A stretch of 64,000 nt of DNA from Ianthella basta (Eukaryota > Porifera > Demospongiae > Verongiida > Ianthellidae). A model generated the notes under the pieces. It saw only the letters and a program-made list of their open reading frames with translations, was not told the DNA's origin and did not search any database. Position 1 is the first letter of the stretch. Each line of letters begins with the position of its first letter. The stretch covers positions 2,443,379 to 2,507,378 of the forward strand of contig OZ025877.1 in assembly GCA_964019415.1 (NCBI GenBank). Direction: 5' to 3'. The translations under genes and the position numbers were made by a program. Of the stretch, positions 42,642-61,684 are shown one piece after another.

Positions 42642-42663
42642 ATTAGTATCTTGCTCCACAGTG

Positions 42664-43323
42664 ATGAAGACGTATGCTTTCAAAGTTATCATTGTTGGCG
42701 GTCAGCGTGTGGGGAAGAGCGCTCTCCTGAAGCAGATGTTTCTGGAAGAGCCTCTATCCGAAGCAGAAATGTTGTCCGAATTTGATGACCAGCAGGGCGC
42801 GGATGGGAGCAGCAAAGACATGAAGAAGAAGGAATACAAGATCGACAACGACTCGACGGTTATTCTAGAGGTATGGGACGCAGTGGGGTATGGTGGAGAT
42901 TCAATAACGTCTCAGTTCTACAGAGAGTCAGTTGGTGTGATCCTCGTGTACGACAGCACTGCGTGCGATTCGCTGGAAGAGCTGCGACCTATTGAAGACA
43001 AGTGCAGAGACGTTCTCAAGGAGTTTGAGTGTGTGACATGCTTCCTCGTAGCCAACAAGATTGATGACGCGGACAGTGATCCTCAGAACATCACATATGG
43101 AGAGCAGTATAAGAATCGACACAGGGACATGTATTCCGAGTTCTTCCAAGTTAGTGCAAAGTGTGGGACTAATGTCGACAAGATGTTCCAGCGGATGGCA
43201 GAAGTACTTCTGGACCGCCACAAACGGGGAGCTATACAACCTGTCCGCCACAGTGACTCTGTGGTGGTGTTGCGTTCTACAGGGTCATCTCCGGCTTCTC
43301 AGAAGTCAAATTGTGACTGTTGA
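42664..43323 (+). CDS. Atypical Ras/Rab-like small GTPase 2
   Basis: Single exon, 219 residues, clearly paralogous to the gene at 41155 along its whole length. P-loop GGQRVGKS, switch II WDAVGYGGDS (DxxG kept, catalytic Gln absent), NKID, VSAK, and tail SNCDC with a CxC for prenylation. ATG 42664 was chosen; the preceding ttgctccacag resembles a 3' splice site, so a 5' UTR intron is possible. Shared features with its neighbour, such as the RHKRGAIQPVRH block and the switch II change, show they arose by tandem duplication after the loss of Gln. Confidence 0.9.
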   Translation: MKTYAFKVIIVGGQRVGKSALLKQMFLEEPLSEAEMLSEFDDQQGADGSSKDMKKKEYKIDNDSTVILEVWDAVGYGGDSITSQFYRESVGVILVYDSTACDSLEELRPIEDKCRDVLKEFECVTCFLVANKIDDADSDPQNITYGEQYKNRHRDMYSEFFQVSAKCGTNVDKMFQRMAEVLLDRHKRGAIQPVRHSDSVVVLRSTGSSPASQKSNCDC

Positions 43324-44201: not shown

Positions 44202-46531
44202 ATGGATTCAAGGGCAGTCCCTCGCGCTCAAGCTGGCAAAGGGATTCCTATCATTCGGCGGAGACCGCCCATACCACGGTACACCAAGTATGAACGATGC
44301 CCAAATAGAGTACCTTGTCCACGTGGATCAAACTGCACCTTTGCACATTCTGAGGAAGAGTTACATCACTGGTTCAGAAACAGGCTGGAGGAAGAGCCTA
44401 GATTACAACCGTCCAAAGGAGCAAGGCCGCCGTATCAGATGTGCAAGAATGTCCAGGAAGCTGGATACTGTTCTTACGATGTCCGCTGTAACTTCCCACA
44501 CTCGAGGAAGGAGCTGGAAGCCTGGTCACAAGGAAGGTATTAATGCAGTACCACCACAATCAAGTACTATATCATGATAGCTGTACACTTGGTGCTAGAC
44601 ACTGAAAGCAGTACTATTTGCCATGAATGTTTCATGGCTCTGGGGAACTGAGTTATGTAGTTACCACATACCCCACTAGACTGCTAGCTAGCTTACTGCA
44701 CAAGGGTGAAAAAATGTCAATAAAAAAGTGAAATGTTATATGGAGGATTAAGGTTCATGCATGTAGCGCCAAATGTTGTGGCTCTGGTAAACAGGTGTGA
44801 CCTAATGTATAGTGCAAAAGTTTCGCAGGACAGTATTTTTGTGAATCTTAAAATTTTGGCTCAAACTATAATTTTCACGTGAAAAATTTTGCATTTTGTG
44901 AGATGCAGGTAAGCCATGTCCCTATACAATGGCAGTGTAAAGCAAGCAATGACGTTGAAGCGCTTGGAGCCATTGCTATGGCTGTGTTGATGACAGCATC
45001 ATTTGTACAAAGTGTGGTTAGGTACGCCTGTACCTGCTTATTGAGCTCACTTCCAAACAACAATGGACGACCTCTTTTCTTGTCTACTAGTTCCTTCACA
45101 GCCATATCTTTAGCTACCTGCTTTCTTATTCTTCGCCAATTCTACCTCGTACTTCTTCCAAGTTCGCACACTGCTGTCCTTGAGAGGACGGCCAGGGAAC
45201 GCTTTGGAAAGGAATTGTACGGCCGCTGTTACACCGTGCTCTGCTGTCCTTTTCCAAATACAAGCCTTTTCTGAGTAAAGTACTTGTACGCTCTGCATTG
45301 TGAACTGCAGGCAGTATTCTCTTTGTTCGCATCGGTGCTGATGACCTTCTTCACCTCTTTATTGGCAGCTATGATGGTGGATGCCGGTACTACTGTTGAC
45401 AGCAAACTGTCTGGCATCGGTAGCACTGAACCAGGGTGCATGAAGTAGTCGTACAGACAGATTACCCGTAACGGCTGTAAACTTTAGGGTGGCAGGTGTA
45501 GCAGTAAACACTCAACGATGAGATCACGAGCATGAGGCACTGTGCCTTCTGAGCATGCACAGCTAGGCTAGATCGGCTGCGGTATATACATAGTAAATTA
45601 GTTACAGGCAACTATGCCATCATCTGTCTTAGATCACCACCCAATGTATAAGCATAGAGTTATACAAAATATTCACGGGGAATATTTTTGTGAATTGTAA
45701 TCTATCCGTAAAATTCGCAAAAATTGTGCTCCTCGAAAATTTTGTGCCATGCGGTACTTCATAATTAAGAGTCATTATTTAGCACCTGACTGTTTGGTAT
45801 GCAGTTGTGGTTATCCATTACTTAAGTGTGCTTTGTCTATTTTCAGTATTATCCAGGAAAGCACGGAGGTGTCTATTCGACCAAGACCTATAATCAGCCC
45901 CCTTGTTCGCTATGAGCTCTGCACGAACAAGCCACCTTGTCCACATGGCACGGGCTGCACTTTTGCTCACTCTAAAGAAGAGTTACGTCACTGGTTTCAG
46001 AGCAGGGTAAAGGAAGAACCGAGACAAGAACATCCAGCAGGGGTGGCACCAGAATACAAAATGTGTACGAATGTTGAGAAAAGTGGCTACTGTCAACACG
46101 ATGTACACTGTCACTTCCCGCACTCCAAAGAAGAGCTGGATGCCTGGCAGAAAGTTGAGCACAGACCCCGTACCACTTTAGACAAGTATATGCCACAATT
46201 GGCCAATGAAGATTACACACCAGTGAAGTAAGTACTACCATGTCATCTCATCTATAATAGTGTAATGACCTTCTCCTTTGACAAGCAAATGAATGAATGG
46301 CTTGTACACATCTATCTTGTAGTATTGCCGAGCACAGAACACAATCACAACATGCTGAGGGGGTACTGCTCAGCCAACTGTCCAGAGAATGGCCAAGGCT
46401 AAAGTGAGTTTTCGATGTGCGGTTTAGCTCCTTTTGATTCCAAGCTGAATCCTATGAATATTTTTATTTTTATTTATTTAGATCCAGCCAATCACAGCCT
46501 CAGAGTACAGGAGCGTCCTCAGAAGCCTCAG
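44202..46531 (+). CDS. Composite gene exons 1-4: four CCCH zinc fingers
   Basis: Finger 1 CPNRVPCPRGSNCTFAH (Cx5Cx5Cx3H), finger 2 CKNVQEAGYCSYDVRCNFPH (Cx8Cx5Cx3H), finger 3 CTNKPPCPHGTGCTFAH, finger 4 CTNVEKSGYCQHDVHCHFPH. Each is followed by an S(E/K)EEL.W or SRKELEAW helix, the fingerprint of CCCH modules in HELZ/HELZ2 and ZC3H7. Exon 1 plus exon 2 are an internal duplication. Reading through the exon 1 donor gives GRY and a stop, so an unspliced short two-finger form is possible. Exons 3 and 4 encode a Gln/Ser-rich linker. Confidence 0.85.
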
Positions 46532-49500
46532 GTGAGATTTTATACACGAGTGGTCAGTTGTCTGTTGGGTGATATACCATATTTGTCTCCAGTCGCCATG
46601 CAGACTCAGATGGAGTCTGAGTCTTGTTTGAGGCTGAAGTTCACTGAGTTGTTCATTGCACTAGAGTTCCTGTGTCAACCTTTCACAGGCTCCCTCAATC
46701 TATGCATGCAGACACTGATATTGCCTCATACTCAGGCTGTCCATGATATTGTTGTAATGTACACATGATTGCTGTTAGACTATGATGCAACAAAATTACT
46801 GCAGTATGAATGGTCACGTTTGCCACCTCTGATTCGACTTATACCATCTCTGGTAGCTACTAGTTAGTTATGGTTAACTTTCAGCAACGTAGCTGCGACA
46901 AGCTTGGAGTGAAAGAAACTTGCGTACTGTTCTGAGGTATGTCTTGGGAGCTGGGCCTTGCAAGGTCGTTGCCATGCAGTTTACACTGCTGTTTGCTACT
47001 CGGCTATCATTCTGTCGTCATTTCTAGGTAGATCTCACCAGCATAGTCCTTCCCCGTATTGGCAGTGGTTGCTATCATAGTCTGAACACCTTAGACTGAG
47101 AACCGTTGGCGTCTACGGGATTTATATCACCTTGGAAACCGATAGAGGCCCTTGCACGTTGCATGCAGGCCTAAAAAAGTAGGTTTCCCATACACGGTGT
47201 TCTAAATCCTGTAGACACCTCGGATCTCAGTCTAGCCCATGTATATGTATGCATGAGTATAATATAACTAGGCATATGCTAAGTGCATAAGAATTGCCTT
47301 GCAGCATGAACAGTACGTGGCCAGTACATGTACAAGTGTAATGTGATGTTACAGACTGGAGCTGTCTTAGTAGCCAAGCGCCTTGTTTGTTACTGCCAAA
47401 GCTCCTCAAGCCTGAACTGCCACTGCTTGTCCGTCGCTGTGGCCAGTAGCCTTGCGCCATTCTGCCGCATTCACTTCTAGCCTGGCCTCTCTGCCCCGCT
47501 GTCTCCCTGTCAAGTTGCGCCCACCGTCTTGCAGCATGGCCCCCTCGGCGTGCTGGACACAGCTGTGTTGTTGCTATTCCCAGCTGCTCTCCTTCTGTGC
47601 CCCTCTTCCGCGGAAGCATGCCGGCAAAGATGAGCGGCCGAACAGGAGCAGAAGACAAGCCGTCATGTGATGGAGTCACATGCGCTGTCACGTGTTGTGC
47701 GATACATAATTCGGATATATATACGTATATCGCCGAGGCTCGAATAGACAGCGATCAATGGCCTCACTTCGCTCGCTTACGCTCGCTGCTCAGCAATTAT
47801 GGCACAATTACAATCCTTGAAGGTTTTTTTCCAGTTTTGAAATTCCCTGAGCTTACCATTATGAAATTTGTGGCAAGGTAGTTGTAAGACAAAGGATGAA
47901 TATAATGGAGTAAAATGCAACTAATAATTATAATAATGGACTGAAGGCATAATTCTACCCACATGTTCTCCACGTCTTCTCCCATGCACAGAGTGGCAGT
48001 TAGCGTACAAAGAATCCCTTGACAGGCATGGCTCCGTGGACGTGGATGTGAAACGATGCATCTTTGTTGGCACCCCGTCGGTAGGAAAGTCCTCCCTGAA
48101 GCACCTCCTCGTGCACAACGCGCCCAAGGCCGTCAAGAAGAGCACCGCTGTAATGGAAGCACCAGAGGTAGTCACAGAACGTTACGCTGTGGGGGAGTTC
48201 ACCTCTGAGTGGCAGCCAGTCACAGATGACGTAATGGAAAAGTCTCTTCACAAGTGCATTGCAAAGAAGGAGTATAATGATGAACATACGTATCCAGAAC
48301 TACAGCAACCTGTGGAAGAAGAAGCTGTAGACGGACGCACTTCTGAAATGTCAGTAGCTTCGGCAGACTCCCAGGCACTTGAGCGTATGTCTACAAAAAA
48401 TGAAGTTGTTGCTCTGCTTGAGAAGCATCGTCCCATCTTACCAGAAAGACTGGGAAAGAGCATCAAGCTGCAGCGCGCATCATTCATCCACCTGCTTGAC
48501 ACAGGTGGTCAGCCGTCTTTTCAGGATGCCCTCCCCCTCCTTTTGAATGCCCCGTGTACGTACATTCAGGTATTCAACGCATCCCGTGATCTGGACCAGC
48601 CTGTCCCCATCACCTATCGCCCCAGTGATGAAGAAGAGACAGAGGAAGATCAGCAGCTCAGTTCAGAGACAGCATGGGACACGATGCTGCGCTCCTTCTC
48701 CAGCATGCAGACCATGGCCCACAAGTGCTCCAAAAAGATGCCAATCTTTCAGCAGAAAGGAAGTCACCCACCAACGCTTCGCATTTTCGTTGTGGGCAAC
48801 TTCAGAGATCAGCTCGTCAAGGAGGGAAGAGAAATGAAGGCGGTAGAGGATATTTGCAAGCGCTTGAAGAAGTTAGAGGGAAAGCCGTATTATCACTCTA
48901 TCCAGGTTAATTCCGCAGGCCAGCCATTTTACCTCATCAACAGCATGGCTGAAAATGAGGATGACAGAGCCTATGTCAAATGTCTCCGTAAAGACATTTC
49001 CAAAGCTGAGTATAGTCTACAGTTGAAGGTGCCTGTGATGTGGTTTCTCTGCATGCAAACCACACGACGTTGCCCACAGAAATTCCTCAGATTCCCGGAT
49101 CTACAAGAATTCTGCTCGAAATGTGGTTTTGTAGATGGAGAAAATGCAGAAAAGCAATTTTCTGCCCTCCTACATCTGTTTTCCCTCCTTGGCTTTTACT
49201 CTTTCTTCAACCTCCGAGGTGTTCCCAATGAAAGCAATTTTGTTTGCACTGACACCGGTGTCTTCCTCAAGGAGGTGTCCAAGCTGCTCGCCATACAGCA
49301 CCACAAGCAACCAAGGTGCTCTGGTGTTAGGAAGTTCCAACAGTATGGCATCATCTCCAGTGAAGATGATGAACTCTTTGAGGAATTGGGCATTAGGAAG
49401 GAGGTGGACCGAAAGTGGTTCCTTGGAGCTCTGGAGCACCTTGGATTGTTGGCGCGCTATTCGGATTCTGGGTATTCTGCTCCATCTTACTTCATGCCTA

Positions 49501-50373
49501 TTGCCCTGCCGCAAGAGAAGATGAAGATGGAAGATCAGGGCACTGTGGCCTCCCTTTGTGTCACCTTTGAATTCCCGGCTGCCACACCCCCTTTGGTCGA
49601 CACAGACCTCCCACGAGGCATTTTCTGCCAACTGGCAGTGAAGCTCAGTAAAGTTGGTTCCTGGAAACCTTTTCCGAAAGCAAGCAATCGCAACACAGTC
49701 AAGTTCAGGTCGGGGAAGTTTGATGTGTACTTGAGGGAAGCACCAGGATTCATCAGCCTCACTCCCTTTCTGGTGGAGGAGTTGGATGGGAAGGATCCAA
49801 TAGCAGAACTCCATGAGCTTTGCAGAGAGATGCGCCACCTATTCTCCAAGGGCCTGGAATCTGCGGCTGATGATGTGTTAGGAGTCCAAGGCAGGCAAGC
49901 AGCCGATCTCGTGTTTGGGTTTGAGTGCTGCTGTGACTGCACTCAGACACCTCATCTAGCAACCCTCAGACAGGCAGCGTCAAAGGGAGACTCCCTGATT
50001 TGCCAAGCCACAGAAGAGGGACGGGACAGCAAACAGGAAGAACAGATTTGGTTCAGTCTAGTAGACTCTAAGGTGAGGAGAAATGGTGGTGATGGAGGTT
50101 CAACAGCTGGAGCACAAGCTATATACTCATGCCAGTATACTGTCCTCGTTCCTTTTCCTGCTACATGATCTTGTGATTCTGTTCTGTGCCCACTACAGCT
50201 TGTGAAGCTAGACAGCATGTGGATCATGGAAAAGCCTTTTGACTCTACCAGATTTGGTGAGTGTGTCAGTGTCTGTCTCATGCACATATGTTATCAGATA
50301 TCAGTAGCTTGTAGAGTAGTCTTCTACTTTAGAGTACTTTCGTTCAGTGTTGATAAATGTACATAGTTGTTGT

Positions 50374-50429
<56 letters not shown>

Positions 50430-51876
50430 GTTTGGTACATGCCAGCTAGTGTGGATCATGTAGTATGACCCAATGGGAAGAGCATAGTTTCCAGATCAGT
50501 TTTAATAGAAGCATGCACGACTACACTTGTACATAAATCCCACTTCTTTATAGCGTATAGCGGGAAATATTGGCGGGCATAAAATTTGGCAGATTTGCCA
50601 TGAAAGGCATTTGGCAGTTTTTAAATTTGGCAGATTTCGTTCCCCAAGACTGATGATGTCACAAAATGGCTATTGACGGCCAAGGAGAAGAGGCTTCGTG
50701 GGCAGTGACTGTCACCACAACAGTCGTGTTCTCAGCATGCTGCATTGCCTTCAACTTCTCTGCAGGTATCGTACTTCAGCCTTCTCGTGGTTGTTTCAGG
50801 CATTGCGAAGTGTCTAGTTGCTCTAGCGGGACCGTTTTTAGCTGCGATTCTTCCTATCTTCGCTCTCTCTTCAGGCGTGTAGCCCGTGTAAGAGCCACGA
50901 GTCACACTGTGCTTCATGTCGACCTTCGCTTGCTCACCAGGCACGAGAGCTTGCCTCACGCTTTTGTTCACGTGTTTTGTCTCCTTCCTTGAGAGAGCGT
51001 CACACTTGAGCACAGGTCCTTCTCTCTGTACATACTTCAACAGCGTCATCTGGCAATCAACTCCAGTGCACATGTGTAATGAACTGCAAGTTACTCATAC
51101 GTATACTTATTGTACTGTATTGCATGTGTTTATAATAGCCGGAAATATTGGCGGGGTTTTAATTTGATGGATTTTCTGAAAACCGCCAAAATTATTGCCC
51201 GCCAATATTTCCCGCTATATGGTATACTGTGACTCCTTCAGTCTCAGCAGCTAGTTTGGCATGGTCGACACAAGCTGGTTTGCACTTTTGATGTTTACCT
51301 GTTCATGTCTATACTTACACAGCAACTGTTGGTGCTCCTGTTGGCCCAGAAACGGATGAACACGAGTACAAGAAACTTATTGTTCCAATTTTCAGGACCA
51401 AGCCTCCTCGGCCCTGTATAGAGACAAGAGATGTCCTTGACATGGTGGCACGTCACCAGAAGGAGATCAACGCCATGCTGAACCACCCCGCCGGAGGAAC
51501 GGTGCACTTTGGCATCCAAGATGAAGGCAACATTGTGGAGGAGGGACTTGATATTGACCAGGATGAAGCCATGGATGCAATTCTAGCACTAGTTGGACAG
51601 ATAGTGCAGAATTTCTTCCCTGCAGTGGGTGCATCGTTCTGGAGTGTTAAACCAGTGAACCTCCTTGACAGCAATGGGAGACAAACTGGACGATGGAGAT
51701 TTGACATCTGTGTGAAACCACACACCCACACGATTGTTTGGCTCGGACGAAACGACACTAAGGCTTACTACCGCCAAGGAGCCTGCAGCCATCCAATGCC
51801 AGCGGATATGCTGGAGGAAAGGATAAAAGGTTCGTTAACTCTCCCTTCTTCCATTAAGCCCCACCCATATGCCTAG
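44202..51876 (+). CDS. CCCH zinc finger - Roc-COR-like GTPase - Schlafen AlbA_2 protein
   Basis: Exons 44202-44536, 45847-46227, 46323-46403, 46482-46531, 47992-50072, 50199-50256 and 51323-51829 (or to stop 51876) join without frame breaks: phases 2, 2, 2, 1, 0, 1. The product is about 1180 residues: two pairs of CCCH fingers, a Gln/Ser linker, a Ras-of-complex GTPase with COR-like winged-helix region, and an AlbA_2 domain as in Schlafens. CCCH fingers bind RNA; Roc-COR proteins are GTP-dependent dimers; AlbA_2 domains of Schlafens are nucleic-acid-binding or nucleolytic and antiviral. The combination suggests a GTP-regulated RNA-binding effector, perhaps in innate defence. I know of no named protein with this order. 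The last donor (aaaag/gttcgt) is weak, so the true end may be the stop at 51876 or further exons. A single transcript is inferred from phase and domain logic only. Confidence 0.78.
44811..45745 (-). mobile_element. Pogo/Tc1-type DNA transposon remnant in intron 1
   Basis: Minus-strand pieces of a DDE transposase N-terminus interrupted by frameshifts: KAFPGRPLKDSSVRTWKK at about 45130-45270 and DKKRGRPLLFGSELNKQVQA at about 44990-45085, typical helix-turn-helix segments of pogo-like elements. Ends are AT-rich with similar stretches (gtatttttgtgaat near 44831, atatttttgtgaat near 45683). The duplicated copy of this intron at 60400-60990 lacks the insert. It is defective. Confidence 0.6.
46532..47991. 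other. Intron 4 of composite gene
   Basis: The first 330 bp are shared with the duplicate at 61685-62003. A CpG-rich block at about 47400-47780 could be a promoter or island; a minus-strand open frame of 154 codons there resembles nothing I recognise. Confidence 0.4.
47992..50072 (+). CDS. Composite gene exon 5: Roc-COR-like GTPase
   Basis: 693 codons. G1 is GTPSVGKSS, G3 is LLDTGGQPSFQD, the G4 position reads VVGNFRDQ (NxxD), followed by VNSAGQP. Downstream, VPVMWFLCMQTTRRCPQ, FCSKCGFVDGENAEKQ, LLHLFSLLGFYSFF and ELGIRKEVDRKWFLGALEHL form the winged-helix part that follows Roc in Roco/MFHAS-like proteins. VASLCVTFEFPAA and RGIFCQLAVKL resemble the COR beta region. A late GFECCCDC with His and Cys could bind metal. 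The exon is one of the longest in the window, a common state for genes of this class in invertebrates. Confidence 0.85.
50199..50256 (+). CDS. Composite gene exon 6 (58 nt linker)
   Basis: Acceptor tgcccactacag and donor g/gtgagtgtg. It encodes LVKLDSMWIMEKPFDSTRF in phase 0 to phase 1, matching the flanking exons. Confidence 0.7.
50373..50426. repeat. GT microsatellite in intron 6
   Basis: Perfect (GT)n of about 54 bp. Confidence 0.95.
50556..51219 (-). mobile_element. DNA transposon remnant with terminal inverted repeats and TA target site
   Basis: Left end tagcgggaaatattggcggg and right end cccgccaatatttcccgcta are exact inverted repeats, each flanked by TA. The minus strand has a 113-codon ORF (50732-51073) with GYTPEERAKIGRIAAKNGPA and RATRHFAMPE, the N-terminal helix-turn-helix region of pogo-like transposases. 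The catalytic domain is absent, so it is a non-autonomous, internally deleted copy about 664 bp long within the last mapped intron of the composite gene. Confidence 0.8.
51323..51876 (+). CDS. Composite gene exon 7: Schlafen-type AlbA_2 domain
   Basis: Begins in phase 1 after acceptor atacttacacag. The core is EINAMLNHPAGGTVHFGIQD followed by EGNIVEEGLDID, corresponding to the GGG(T/V)xxxGI(x)D signature of AlbA_2, then WSVKPVNLLDSNG and AYYRQGACSHPM near the end of the domain, as in Schlafens and Schlafen-like proteins. If the donor at 51830 is not used the ORF ends at 51876 after a further 15 residues. Confidence 0.82.
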
Positions 51877-55113: not shown

Positions 55114-56189
55114 TCAAGGGGGAGAGTGAGAAGGAGGCTTGTTCAACAAGGGGAGCCAGGAGGGATTAATGTTAAGTCCACAGTCCAAGTTAGAGGTTTG
55201 GGGTTGCTGGTGGATGTGCAGGGCCTCTAGGACCCTTCTCTTCCAATAGCTACCTTCCTCTTGTTTGACTGTAGCGGCTTCCCAGTTGACCTGGTGCTGG
55301 TTGGTCCAGGAGTGCACAGCAATACCATTCTTGGGGTCATTCTTCTTTACTGCAGTCTTGTGCTCACTGATCCGCTTCTCCAAGGTTCTTCCTGTCTCCC
55401 CAATGTATACACTTGGGCAATCCTTGCATGGTACCTCATAGACTACTCCCTTCTTCTTCCTGTCCGATCTTGGCTGCTTCACCTTCACTAATGAGGATCT
55501 GAGAGTGCTTCGGGATGACGTCACTGTTTTCACTCCCAGTGGTCTGCACATCCTCTCAATTCGCTCACTGACTCCTTTGACATATGGAATGTGTAGGAGT
55601 TTGGGAGGTGACTCAGTTTCTACAATTGTGGTGGTTGGTGTTGTTCTGCCTCTCAAGTTGTTCTTCACTACTGCTCCAGGATAGCCATTGGCCATGAACA
55701 CTCGCCTGAGGTGCTGGATCTCTTGCCATCGCTTTCCTCCCCCGCATACCTTCTCTGCTCTGACTCTCAAGCACTGTACGACTCCTCTGAACACCTTGGC
55801 TGGGTGGTGAGAGTTGAAGTTCAGGTATCTGTCAGTATGTGTCTTCTTGCGGAAGACAGATGTCAGGGCTGAGTTTCCACACCTTTCCAGTTGCACGTCA
55901 AGGAAAGCGATCTTGCCTTCTGCTTCTCTTTCCATTGTGAATTGGATAGAGCGGTTCTGTCCATTGATGTGCTGGTAGAAGGTCTTCAAGCGGTCATCAT
56001 CATGTGGCCAGATGGCAAAGATATCGTCCACGTATCTCAGCCACATCTTGGGCTTGTATGGCGATGTCTCTAGAGCTCGTGTCTCCAGGGCTTCCATGAA
56101 GATGTTAGCTACAACGGGTGAGAGCGGAGAGCCCATGGCTGCCCCTTTCACTTGTTCAAAGAAAGATCCGCCAAACTGGAAGTAAGTCG
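55114..56189 (-). CDS. Penelope-like reverse transcriptase C-terminus with GIY-YIG endonuclease (left copy)
   Basis: The open frame runs on to 56250, but the first 20 codons are antisense to the other copy. The reverse-transcriptase part has AAMGSPLSPVVANIFME and the catalytic YVDD in LRYVDDIFAIW. The endonuclease has GVVYEVPCKDC and VYIGETGRTLEKRISEHK, the GIY-YIG motif with the two cysteines usual in this class. N-terminal RT motifs are missing, so the copy is 5' truncated. The frame is intact. Confidence 0.92.
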
Positions 56190-56191
56190 AC

Positions 56192-56950
56192 TCAGCCCTG
56201 ACATCTGTCTTCCGCAAGAAGACACATACTGACAGATACCTGAACTTCAACTCTCACCACCCAGCCAAGGTGTTCAGAGGAGTCGTACAGTGCTTGAGAG
56301 TCAGAGCAGAGAAGGTATGCGGGGGAGGAAAGCGATGGCAAGAGATCCAGCACCTCAGGCGAGTGTTCATGGCCAATGGCTATCCTGGAGCAGTAGTGAA
56401 GAACAACTTGAGAGGCAGAACAACACCAACCACCACAATTGTAGAAACTGAGTCACCTCCCAAACTCCTACACATTCCATATGTCAAAGGAGTCAGTGAG
56501 CGAATTGAGAGGATGTGCAGACCACTGGGAGTGAAAACAGTGACGTCATCCCGAAGCACTCTCAGATCCTCATTAGTGAAGGTGAAGCAGCCAAGATCGG
56601 ACAGGAAGAAGAAGGGAGTAGTCTATGAGGTACCATGCAAGGATTGCCCAAGTGTATACATTGGGGAGACAGGAAGAACCTTGGAGAAGCGGATCAGTGA
56701 GCACAAGACTGCAGTAAAGAAGAATGACCCCAAGAATGGTATTGCTGTGCACTCCTGGACCAACCAGCACCAGGTCAACTGGGAAGCCGCTACAGTCAAA
56801 CAAGAGGAAGGTAGCTATTGGAAGAGAAGGGTCCTAGAGGCCCTGCACATCCACCAGCAACCCCAAACCTCTAACTTGGACTGTGGACTTAACATTAATC
56901 CCTCCTGGCTCCCCTTGTTGAACAAGCCTCCTTCTCACTCTCCCCCTTGA
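56192..56950 (+). CDS. Penelope-like GIY-YIG endonuclease fragment (right copy)
   Basis: Open from the junction to the stop at 56948-56950, about 252 codons. It lacks the YVDD motif but keeps the whole linker and GIY-YIG domain. Its sequence is the same as the left copy where both exist, without frameshifts or stops, which points to a recent insertion or gene conversion. Confidence 0.9.
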   Translation, partial: SALTSVFRKKTHTDRYLNFNSHHPAKVFRGVVQCLRVRAEKVCGGGKRWQEIQHLRRVFMANGYPGAVVKNNLRGRTTPTTTIVETESPPKLLHIPYVKGVSERIERMCRPLGVKTVTSSRSTLRSSLVKVKQPRSDRKKKGVVYEVPCKDCPSVYIGETGRTLEKRISEHKTAVKKNDPKNGIAVHSWTNQHQVNWEAATVKQEEGSYWKRRVLEALHIHQQPQTSNLDCGLNINPSWLPLLNKPPSHSPP

Positions 56951-60061: not shown

Positions 60062-61684
60062 ATGGACTCAAGGGCAGTCGCTCGCGCTCAAGCTGGCAAA
60101 GCGATTCCCAAGATTCGGCGGAGACCGCCCATACCACGGTACACCAAGTATGATAGATGCCAAAATGGATTACCTTGTCCACGTGGCTCAAACTGCACCT
60201 TTGCACATTCTGAGGAAGAGTTACATCACTGGTTTAGAAGCAGGACGGAGGAAGAGCCTAGATTACAACCGCCCGAAGGAGCAAGGCCGCCGTATAAGAT
60301 GTGCAAGAATGTCCAGGATACTGGATACTGTTCTTATGATGCTCGCTGTATCTTCCCACACTCGAGGAAGGAGCTGGAAGCCTGGTCGCAGGGAAGGTAT
60401 TAATGCAGCATCACCACAATCAAATGCTATATCGTGATAGCTGTGCACTTGGTGCTAGACACTGAAAGCAGTACTATTTGCCATGAATGTTTCATGGCTC
60501 TGGGGGACTGAGCTATGTACTATGCTAGACTGCTAGCTAGCTTACTGCATGCACAAGGGTAAAAAATGTCAATCAAAGTGAAATGTTGTACAGACAGTTC
60601 TTCGCTCCGTGCATGGAAAGCTCAATGTTTTGGCTCTGGTTCGACCTACTTCATGATTCAGAGTCATTATTTAGCGCTGATACGAGATTCTTGAGCAAGA
60701 CACAACTGATAATGATAAATCAATCAAATGCAGGACGTTTGGACCCGAAGGTCTTTGTCAACTGCGTACAGGATGATCCAAGATTCCTGTACGCAGTTGA
60801 AAAAGACCTTCGGGTCGAAATGTCCTGCATTTGATTGATTTATCATTATCAGTTGTGTCTTGCTCAAGAATCTCGTATCATCGTATTATCAACACAACTA
60901 TGAGCCTCTACAATATCATTATTTAGCACCTGAGTGTTTTGGTGTGCAGTTGTGGTTATCCATTACTTAAGTGTGCTTTGTCTATCTTCAGTATTATCCA
61001 GGAAAGCACAGAGGCATCTATTCGACCAAGACCTATAGTCAACCCCCTTGTTCACTATGAGCTCTGCATGAACAAGCCACTTTGTCCACATGGCGTGGGC
61101 TGCACTTTTGCTCACTCTAAAGAAGAGTTACGTCACTGGTTTCTGAGCAGGGTAAAGGAAGAGCCAAGACAAGAACATCCAGCAGGGATAGCACCAGTAA
61201 ACGAAATGTGTGCGAATGTTGAGAAAAGTGGCTATTGTTCATATGACGTGCACTGTCATTTTCCGCACTCCAAAGAGGAGCTAGATGCCTGGAAGAAAGT
61301 TGAACGTAGACCACCTACCACTTTAGATGAGTATATGCCACAATTGGCCAATGAGGACTACACACAAGTGAAGTAAGTACTATACCGTGTCATCCCATCT
61401 GTAAGAGTGTAGTGACCTCCTTCAACAAGCAAATGAATGAACTACTGGCATATTACATGTCTTTCTTGTTGCAGTGTTGCCGAACACAAAACGCAATCAC
61501 AGCATGCTGAGGGGGTATTGCTCAGCCAACTGTCAAGGCCATGGCCCAAGCTAAAGTGAGTTTTCAGTGTGTAATTTAGCTTCCTTTTGATTCCAAGCTG
61601 AATCCTATGAGTATCATTAATTTTATTTATTTAGATCCAGCCAATCACAGGCTCAGAGTACAGGAGTGTCCTCAGAAGCTTCAG
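60062..61684 (+). CDS. Second CCCH zinc-finger gene, 5' duplicate of the composite gene
   Basis: Four exons at 60062-60396, 60992-61372, 61475-61555 and 61635-61684, with lengths 335, 381, 81 and 50 nt as in the gene at 44202 and the same phases. All four fingers are intact (CQNGLPCPRGSNCTFAH, CKNVQDTGYCSYDARCIFPH, CMNKPLCPHGVGCTFAH, CANVEKSGYCSYDVHCHFPH). Amino-acid changes are scattered and no stops occur, so it is probably functional or young. Homology ends near 62003; GTPase and AlbA_2 exons are not found before 64000, so it is either truncated or continues outside. An upstream in-frame ATG at 60038 adds eight residues. Confidence 0.82.
60676..60915. mobile_element. Hairpin-type Penelope terminal-repeat insertion in intron 1 of CCCH copy 2
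   Basis: A 240-bp unit flanked by the 12-bp duplication tcattatttagc (60664-60675 and 60916-60927). The orthologous site in copy 1 (about 45762) has one tcattatttagc and no insert. The unit is an inverted repeat with arms of about 95 bp; each arm has a degenerate hammerhead-like core (GACC-TTCG-GGTC stem, GAAA on one arm) and the right end resembles the end of the full element at 57242 (cctctaca.tatc). Confidence 0.75.

Follow-up and report, generated by a model that had tools for sequence, protein, structure and literature searches.

A candidate effector gene joining CCCH fingers, a Roc-COR GTPase and an AlbA_2 domain in the sponge Ianthella basta

In a window of 64,000 nucleotides from the sponge Ianthella basta (GenBank assembly GCA_964019415.1, contig OZ025877.1, positions 2,443,379 to 2,507,378 of the forward strand; C10:2443379-2507378 among the contigs searched), seven exons between positions 44202 and 51876 join into one open frame of 1179 residues. 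We consider it reasonably probable (about 60%) that they form a single gene encoding four CCCH fingers, a Roc-COR GTPase and an AlbA_2 domain, and that the protein combines an RNA-binding sensor, a GTP switch and an effector that cuts RNA or tRNA. Computation gave the joined frame, the conserved order of the parts, their predicted folds, and the conservation of the G motifs and the nuclease motif. The genome searched (209 Mb, 96 contigs) contains a diverged paralogue with the same order on a second contig, C11. The exons and motifs are, in positions of the window:

44202-44536, forward strand: exon 1, start codon and first CCCH doublet
44298-44348, forward strand: first finger of exon 1, CX5CX5CX3H
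44442-44501, forward strand: second finger of exon 1, CX8CX5CX3H
45847-46227, forward strand: exon 2, second CCCH doublet; both splice sites kept in C11
45920-45970, forward strand: first finger of exon 2, CX5CX5CX3H
46064-46123, forward strand: second finger of exon 2, CX8CX5CX3H
46323-46403, forward strand: exon 3, linker; both splice sites kept in C11
46482-46531, forward strand: exon 4, short linker of 50 bp with a phase-1 donor; no counterpart detected in C11
47992-50072, forward strand: exon 5, Roc-COR GTPase
48069-48095, forward strand: P-loop GTPSVGKSS, exon 5
48498-48512, forward strand: DTGGQ, exon 5
48798-48809, forward strand: NFRD, exon 5
50199-50256, forward strand: exon 6, short linker behind COR
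51323-51876, forward strand: exon 7, AlbA_2; coding ends at the stop at 51876, or at a donor after 51830 with a further exon
51349-51372, forward strand: catalytic motif ExxxxExK, read as ETDEHEYK, exon 7
51520-51522, forward strand: Asp of GIQD, exon 7

All six introns run from GT to AG, with phases 2, 2, 2, 1, 0 and 1, and the ATG at 44202 is the first start codon behind an in-frame stop. Together with the C11 paralogue, these features confirm the proposal of the initial annotation that the seven exons join in phase. The first ATG of the open frame in exon 5 (48153) lies downstream of the P-loop, and that of exon 7 (51442) downstream of the AlbA_2 catalytic motif, indicating that both active sites depend on upstream coding exons. 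Similarity to C11 stops at 51830, so the last exon may end at the possible donor there.

On one strand, the C11 locus carries finger doublets, exon 3, Roc-COR, exon 6 and AlbA_2. Identity with the window copy is 65% and 66% for the two finger-doublet exons, 52% over 25 residues for exon 3, 79% for Roc-COR, 60% over 20 residues for exon 6, and 72% over 177 residues or 75% over 169 for AlbA_2. Position and phase are shared at nine splice sites: both ends of exons 2, 3, 5 and 6, and the exon 7 acceptor. Little of introns 4 and 6 can be aligned (52/1460 and 229/1066 bases), and intron 5 aligns at 69%. The ratio of nonsynonymous to synonymous substitution rates (dN/dS) against C11 is 0.10 for exon 1 (with dS at 2.0, near saturation), 0.26 for exon 2, 0.17 for Roc-COR and 0.28 for AlbA_2. 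Three finger-doublet exons lie on one strand at C11:4786773-4793519, upstream of the Roc-COR and AlbA_2 exons; the one nearest to exon 1 has an acceptor ahead of it, which marks it as an internal exon rather than the first.

Direct reading of exons 1 and 2 bears out the four CCCH fingers of the initial annotation, arranged as two doublets, each with a CX5CX5CX3H finger followed by CX8CX5CX3H. The Pfam zf-CCCH model recognised exon 1 above its cut-off (E 7.9e-9), exon 2 below it (E 0.042; 14.2 bits, cut-off 20.5) and the joined protein at E 1.9e-6. Among solved structures, the nearest to exon 1 was ZFP36L2 (named Butyrate response factor 2; E 3.3e-6), followed by a C3H1-type protein (8.6e-6), Roquin-1 (3.4e-5), TTP (8e-5) and ZC3H7A (1.2e-4); exon 2 gave weaker matches to similar proteins, Roquin-1 (7e-4) ranking first. 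For the HELZ2/ZC3H7 type earlier given to these fingers, ZC3H7A does match, with ZFP36L2 and Roquin-1 ranking higher, and HELZ2 itself found no specific support, no HELZ2 sequence being among those compared. A second CCCH gene occupies 60062-61683 of the window, with finger and linker exons 78-86% identical to those of the main gene; the stretch from there to the window end showed no Roc-COR exon.

The GTPase motifs G1, G3 and G4 are all present in exon 5. G27, G32, K33 and S34 of the P-loop are kept in at least 90% of 73 alignment rows, DTGGQ in 72 of the 73, and a TFKD/THKD/NFRD-like motif in at least 70. The predicted fold clearly has a Roc domain followed by COR in tandem, and Roco membership is assigned from this predicted fold alone. 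With the conserved motifs, it upholds the earlier reading of a Roc-COR-like GTPase, even though the Pfam Roc score falls below the cut-off.

The AlbA_2 domain of the initial annotation was recovered by profile search: Pfam SLFN_AlbA_2 scored 26.3 bits on exon 7 alone, above the cut-off of 25.3, and 21.5 bits, below it, on the joined protein. Within the AlbA_2 alignment, 32 of 33 members match this model at E <= 0.001, and E-x4-E-x-K is kept in 27 of the 30 rows that have letters at the motif. The predicted fold matches SAMD9 and the Schlafens. Searching proteins with the AlbA_2 profile gave a list of 72, none weaker than 1.6e-8, so the branch looks narrow within the reach of the search tool. 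Sequence searches of exons 5 and 7 against solved structures returned nothing useful, an NCBIfam scan gave one exon 5 match at chance level, and a PADLOC scan of three exons gave nothing.

On contig C1, ankyrin-repeat proteins encoded in unbroken frames (776-1497 residues) end in this AlbA_2 domain, preceded by the same lead-in. Pfam ankyrin repeats and AlbA_2 were both above cut-off in all six frames scanned (L044 and L046-L050), so that the genome pairs this effector with two or more kinds of partner module. From these sequences, different sensors appear to feed one type of effector, with AlbA_2 as a plug-in.

Three loci on C10 (L039, L040 and L041) are segmental duplicates of the main gene, with exons 94-100% and introns 92-100% alike. 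Since the introns are also this similar, we did not count the order of parts in these copies as independent proof. The reading of L041 began just ahead of exon 2, and a 97% match to exon 1 lies directly upstream of the stretch read. Exons 3 and 4 keep their splice sites in all three duplicates.

Several observations weigh against the proposed gene or the roles given to its parts. Of the three near-identical copies read, L040 and L041 are broken. In L040, a stop interrupts exon 2 and Roc-COR has an 11-bp gap; L041 carries gaps of 1 bp in Roc-COR and 2 bp in exon 6, together with a stop in AlbA_2. In a further AlbA_2 copy (L013/L042, C10:2525406), Gln replaces the second catalytic Glu, and the 8.4 kb read ahead of this copy showed no Roc-COR. 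Each homologue among the best 120 of 272 covers at most 60% of the joined protein, so that no spliced copy was seen. In favour of a single gene, a weak hint is that database relatives of the Roc-COR exon and of the AlbA_2 exon lie on contigs of equal length (818515; 2192543; 1042708). Pfam Roc reached 17.0 bits against a cut-off of 27, and all 10 homologues scanned from these best 120 were likewise below it (14.6-20.4 bits). The Roc-COR profile reached no Roco entry among solved structures at E <= 1, and query-length-normalised Foldseek TM-scores are moderate, up to 0.47 for Roc-COR and 0.61 for AlbA_2. The AlbA_2 profile finds SAMD9 weakly, at E 0.01, and an unrelated coiled coil follows at 0.057; Asp 67 is D in only 28 of 33 rows and N in C11. 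One of the three C11 doublet exons, at C11:4793241 upstream of the one nearest to exon 1, suggests that the paralogous gene may have three doublets, or six fingers.

Other findings would fit two neighbouring genes, a CCCH-finger protein made by exons 1-4 and a Roc-COR-AlbA_2 gene whose first exon was missed. The finger doublets form a large family of their own, with exon-sized matches at 47 places, 44 of them strong, on C10, C11, C7, C6 and C3, the second CCCH gene of the window among them. Moreover, the 50-bp exon 4 was not found in C11, where about 12 kb, with frames that by eye resemble retroelement pieces, separate exon 3 from Roc-COR. However, exons 4 and 5 join in phase, the exon 5 frame needs an upstream coding exon to include its P-loop, C11, L039 and L040 have finger exons ahead of Roc-COR on the same strand, and the conserved splice sites of exons 3 and 4 in the duplicates are joined by those of exon 3 in C11. 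From the phases, the start codons and the C11 paralogue, we judge separate genes improbable.

Even if the gene is single, its AlbA_2 domain could be a module that binds RNA or DNA and does not cleave, which would make the protein a GTP-regulated RNA-binding scaffold or a translational repressor. This is a possibility to which we give some weight, though we think it rather unlikely. The SAMD9 AlbA_2 domain was crystallised with DNA, as the title of 7ksp states, the second lobe of Schlafens is absent here, and the variation at Asp 67 and at the second Glu would suit such a protein. On the other side stand the conservation of E-x4-E-x-K and, for SLFN14, passages of PMC12215978 according to which this motif is essential and the Asp pair has a limited, substrate-dependent role; likewise, the title of 9o0d calls the single AlbA_2 domain of SAMD9 a tRNase domain. 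It is very unlikely that the window copy is a functionless, decaying member of a young tandem array, as the broken state of L040 and L041 and the near-identity of L039 (99.6-100% in 10 of 13 exons and introns) might suggest, because both L039 and the window copy lack stops and frame-shifting gaps in the compared exons and dN/dS against C11 does not exceed 0.28 in any of the four parts tested.

Under the single-gene reading, the N-terminal finger doublets would bind RNA, as their resemblance to the fingers of TTP, Roquin and ZC3H7A suggests. RNA binding, or the GTP state of Roc-COR, could then alter the dimer or the conformation, by analogy with the GTP-controlled change of state of a bacterial Roco protein (PMC5714945), and so bring AlbA_2 domains together or uncover them. 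The AlbA_2 domain would then cleave either the bound RNA or, more probably, tRNA or rRNA, as happens in SAMD9 and the Schlafens. RNA cleavage with translation shutdown is described for SAMD9L in PMC11221667, and here the outcome would be a translation block or the decay of the targeted RNA, most plausibly in intracellular defence. Defence would be the likeliest role on family grounds and because the copies are young, multiplied and partly decayed. The GTP-controlled RNA-targeting effector envisaged in the initial annotation is partly supported: its architecture, predicted folds and motifs stand by computation, and RNA binding, GTP control and cleavage are inferred.

Each part of this protein is known, and the combination looks new from the literature searched. 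It is of the kind in which an NTPase switch is joined to an AlbA_2 nuclease, with SAMD9 nearest in logic but built from other parts. SAMD9 and SAMD9L share the AlbA_2 domain with a Schlafen-like active site, but the SAMD9 order given in PMC5445408 places AlbA_2 first, followed by SIR2-like, STAND-like NTPase, TPR and OB domains. Here, in contrast, the switch is Roc-COR, the sensor is made of CCCH fingers and AlbA_2 lies at or near the C-terminus; Pfam found none of the SIR2-like, STAND-like NTPase, TPR and OB core at E <= 1 in the joined protein. The Schlafens (SLFN5/11/12/13/14) share the SLFN_AlbA_2 domain and the ExxxxExK motif, but Pfam found neither their second lobe nor their helicase part, only a single AlbA_2 stretch; COR occupies the upstream space, and about 20 residues of exon 6 stand between it and exon 7. 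Lacking the two-lobed N-terminal domain, the protein was not filed as a Schlafen. It differs from the Roco proteins LRRK2, C. tepidum Roco and M. barkeri Roco2 in having AlbA_2 as output and a sequence below the Pfam Roc cut-off, and no kinase or leucine-rich repeat was found by Pfam in the joined protein. The CCCH mRNA-decay factors (ZFP36L2/TTP, Roquin-1) and ZC3H7A have similar finger sequences, whereas here four fingers in two doublets are fused to a GTPase and a nuclease. ZAP, an antiviral RNA factor, also has four N-terminal CCCH fingers, but carries WWE and PARP-like domains.

The initial annotation knew no named family with this order, and the combination of CCCH, Roc-COR and AlbA_2 was indeed not found in the literature searched, which excluded most subscription papers and all preprints. 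The same literature held nothing for Roco with Schlafen and CCCH, for Roco in Porifera evolution, or for AlbA_2 with ankyrin in metazoa; the sole match for Roc-COR with CCCH was an LRRK2 proximity study. For the domain architecture of sponge Roco proteins, the one match was a paper on death and TRADD-N domains, whose text mentions neither CCCH nor AlbA nor Schlafen. Among the papers listed for broader topics, titles and abstract openings showed nothing on this architecture either.

Elsewhere in the window, intron 6 contains an insert resembling a miniature inverted-repeat transposable element (50549-51226), whose 48-bp arms are 85% complementary and 582 bp apart. Just upstream of the main gene, at 42643-43323, is a frame that we read as a Ras/Rab-like small GTPase. 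Two facing frames with largely identical stretches (55117-56947) resemble reverse transcriptase with a GIY-YIG-like end, and we take them to be Penelope-like.

If the proposed reading is true, a Roco-type GTPase drives a nuclease instead of a kinase or scaffold, and RNA cutting of the SAMD9/Schlafen type comes under another sort of switch whose sensors can be swapped, possibly in an early-branching animal that is not known to have interferon. Control of output by Roc-COR is a long-standing question for LRRK2, and here a compact system would make its GTP turnover directly readable as RNA cleavage. We suggest, tentatively and with less than even confidence, an undescribed class of animal innate-immune effectors, in which finger doublets would sense foreign or stress RNA, an LRRK2-type Roc-COR would signal by cycling between monomer and dimer in a GTP-dependent manner, and a nuclease of the SAMD9/Schlafen type at the C-terminus would cut tRNA and stop translation. 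Such a family would swap sensors, either ankyrin repeats or finger-GTPase modules, on the same effector, and in this it would resemble NLR-type and prokaryotic abortive systems.
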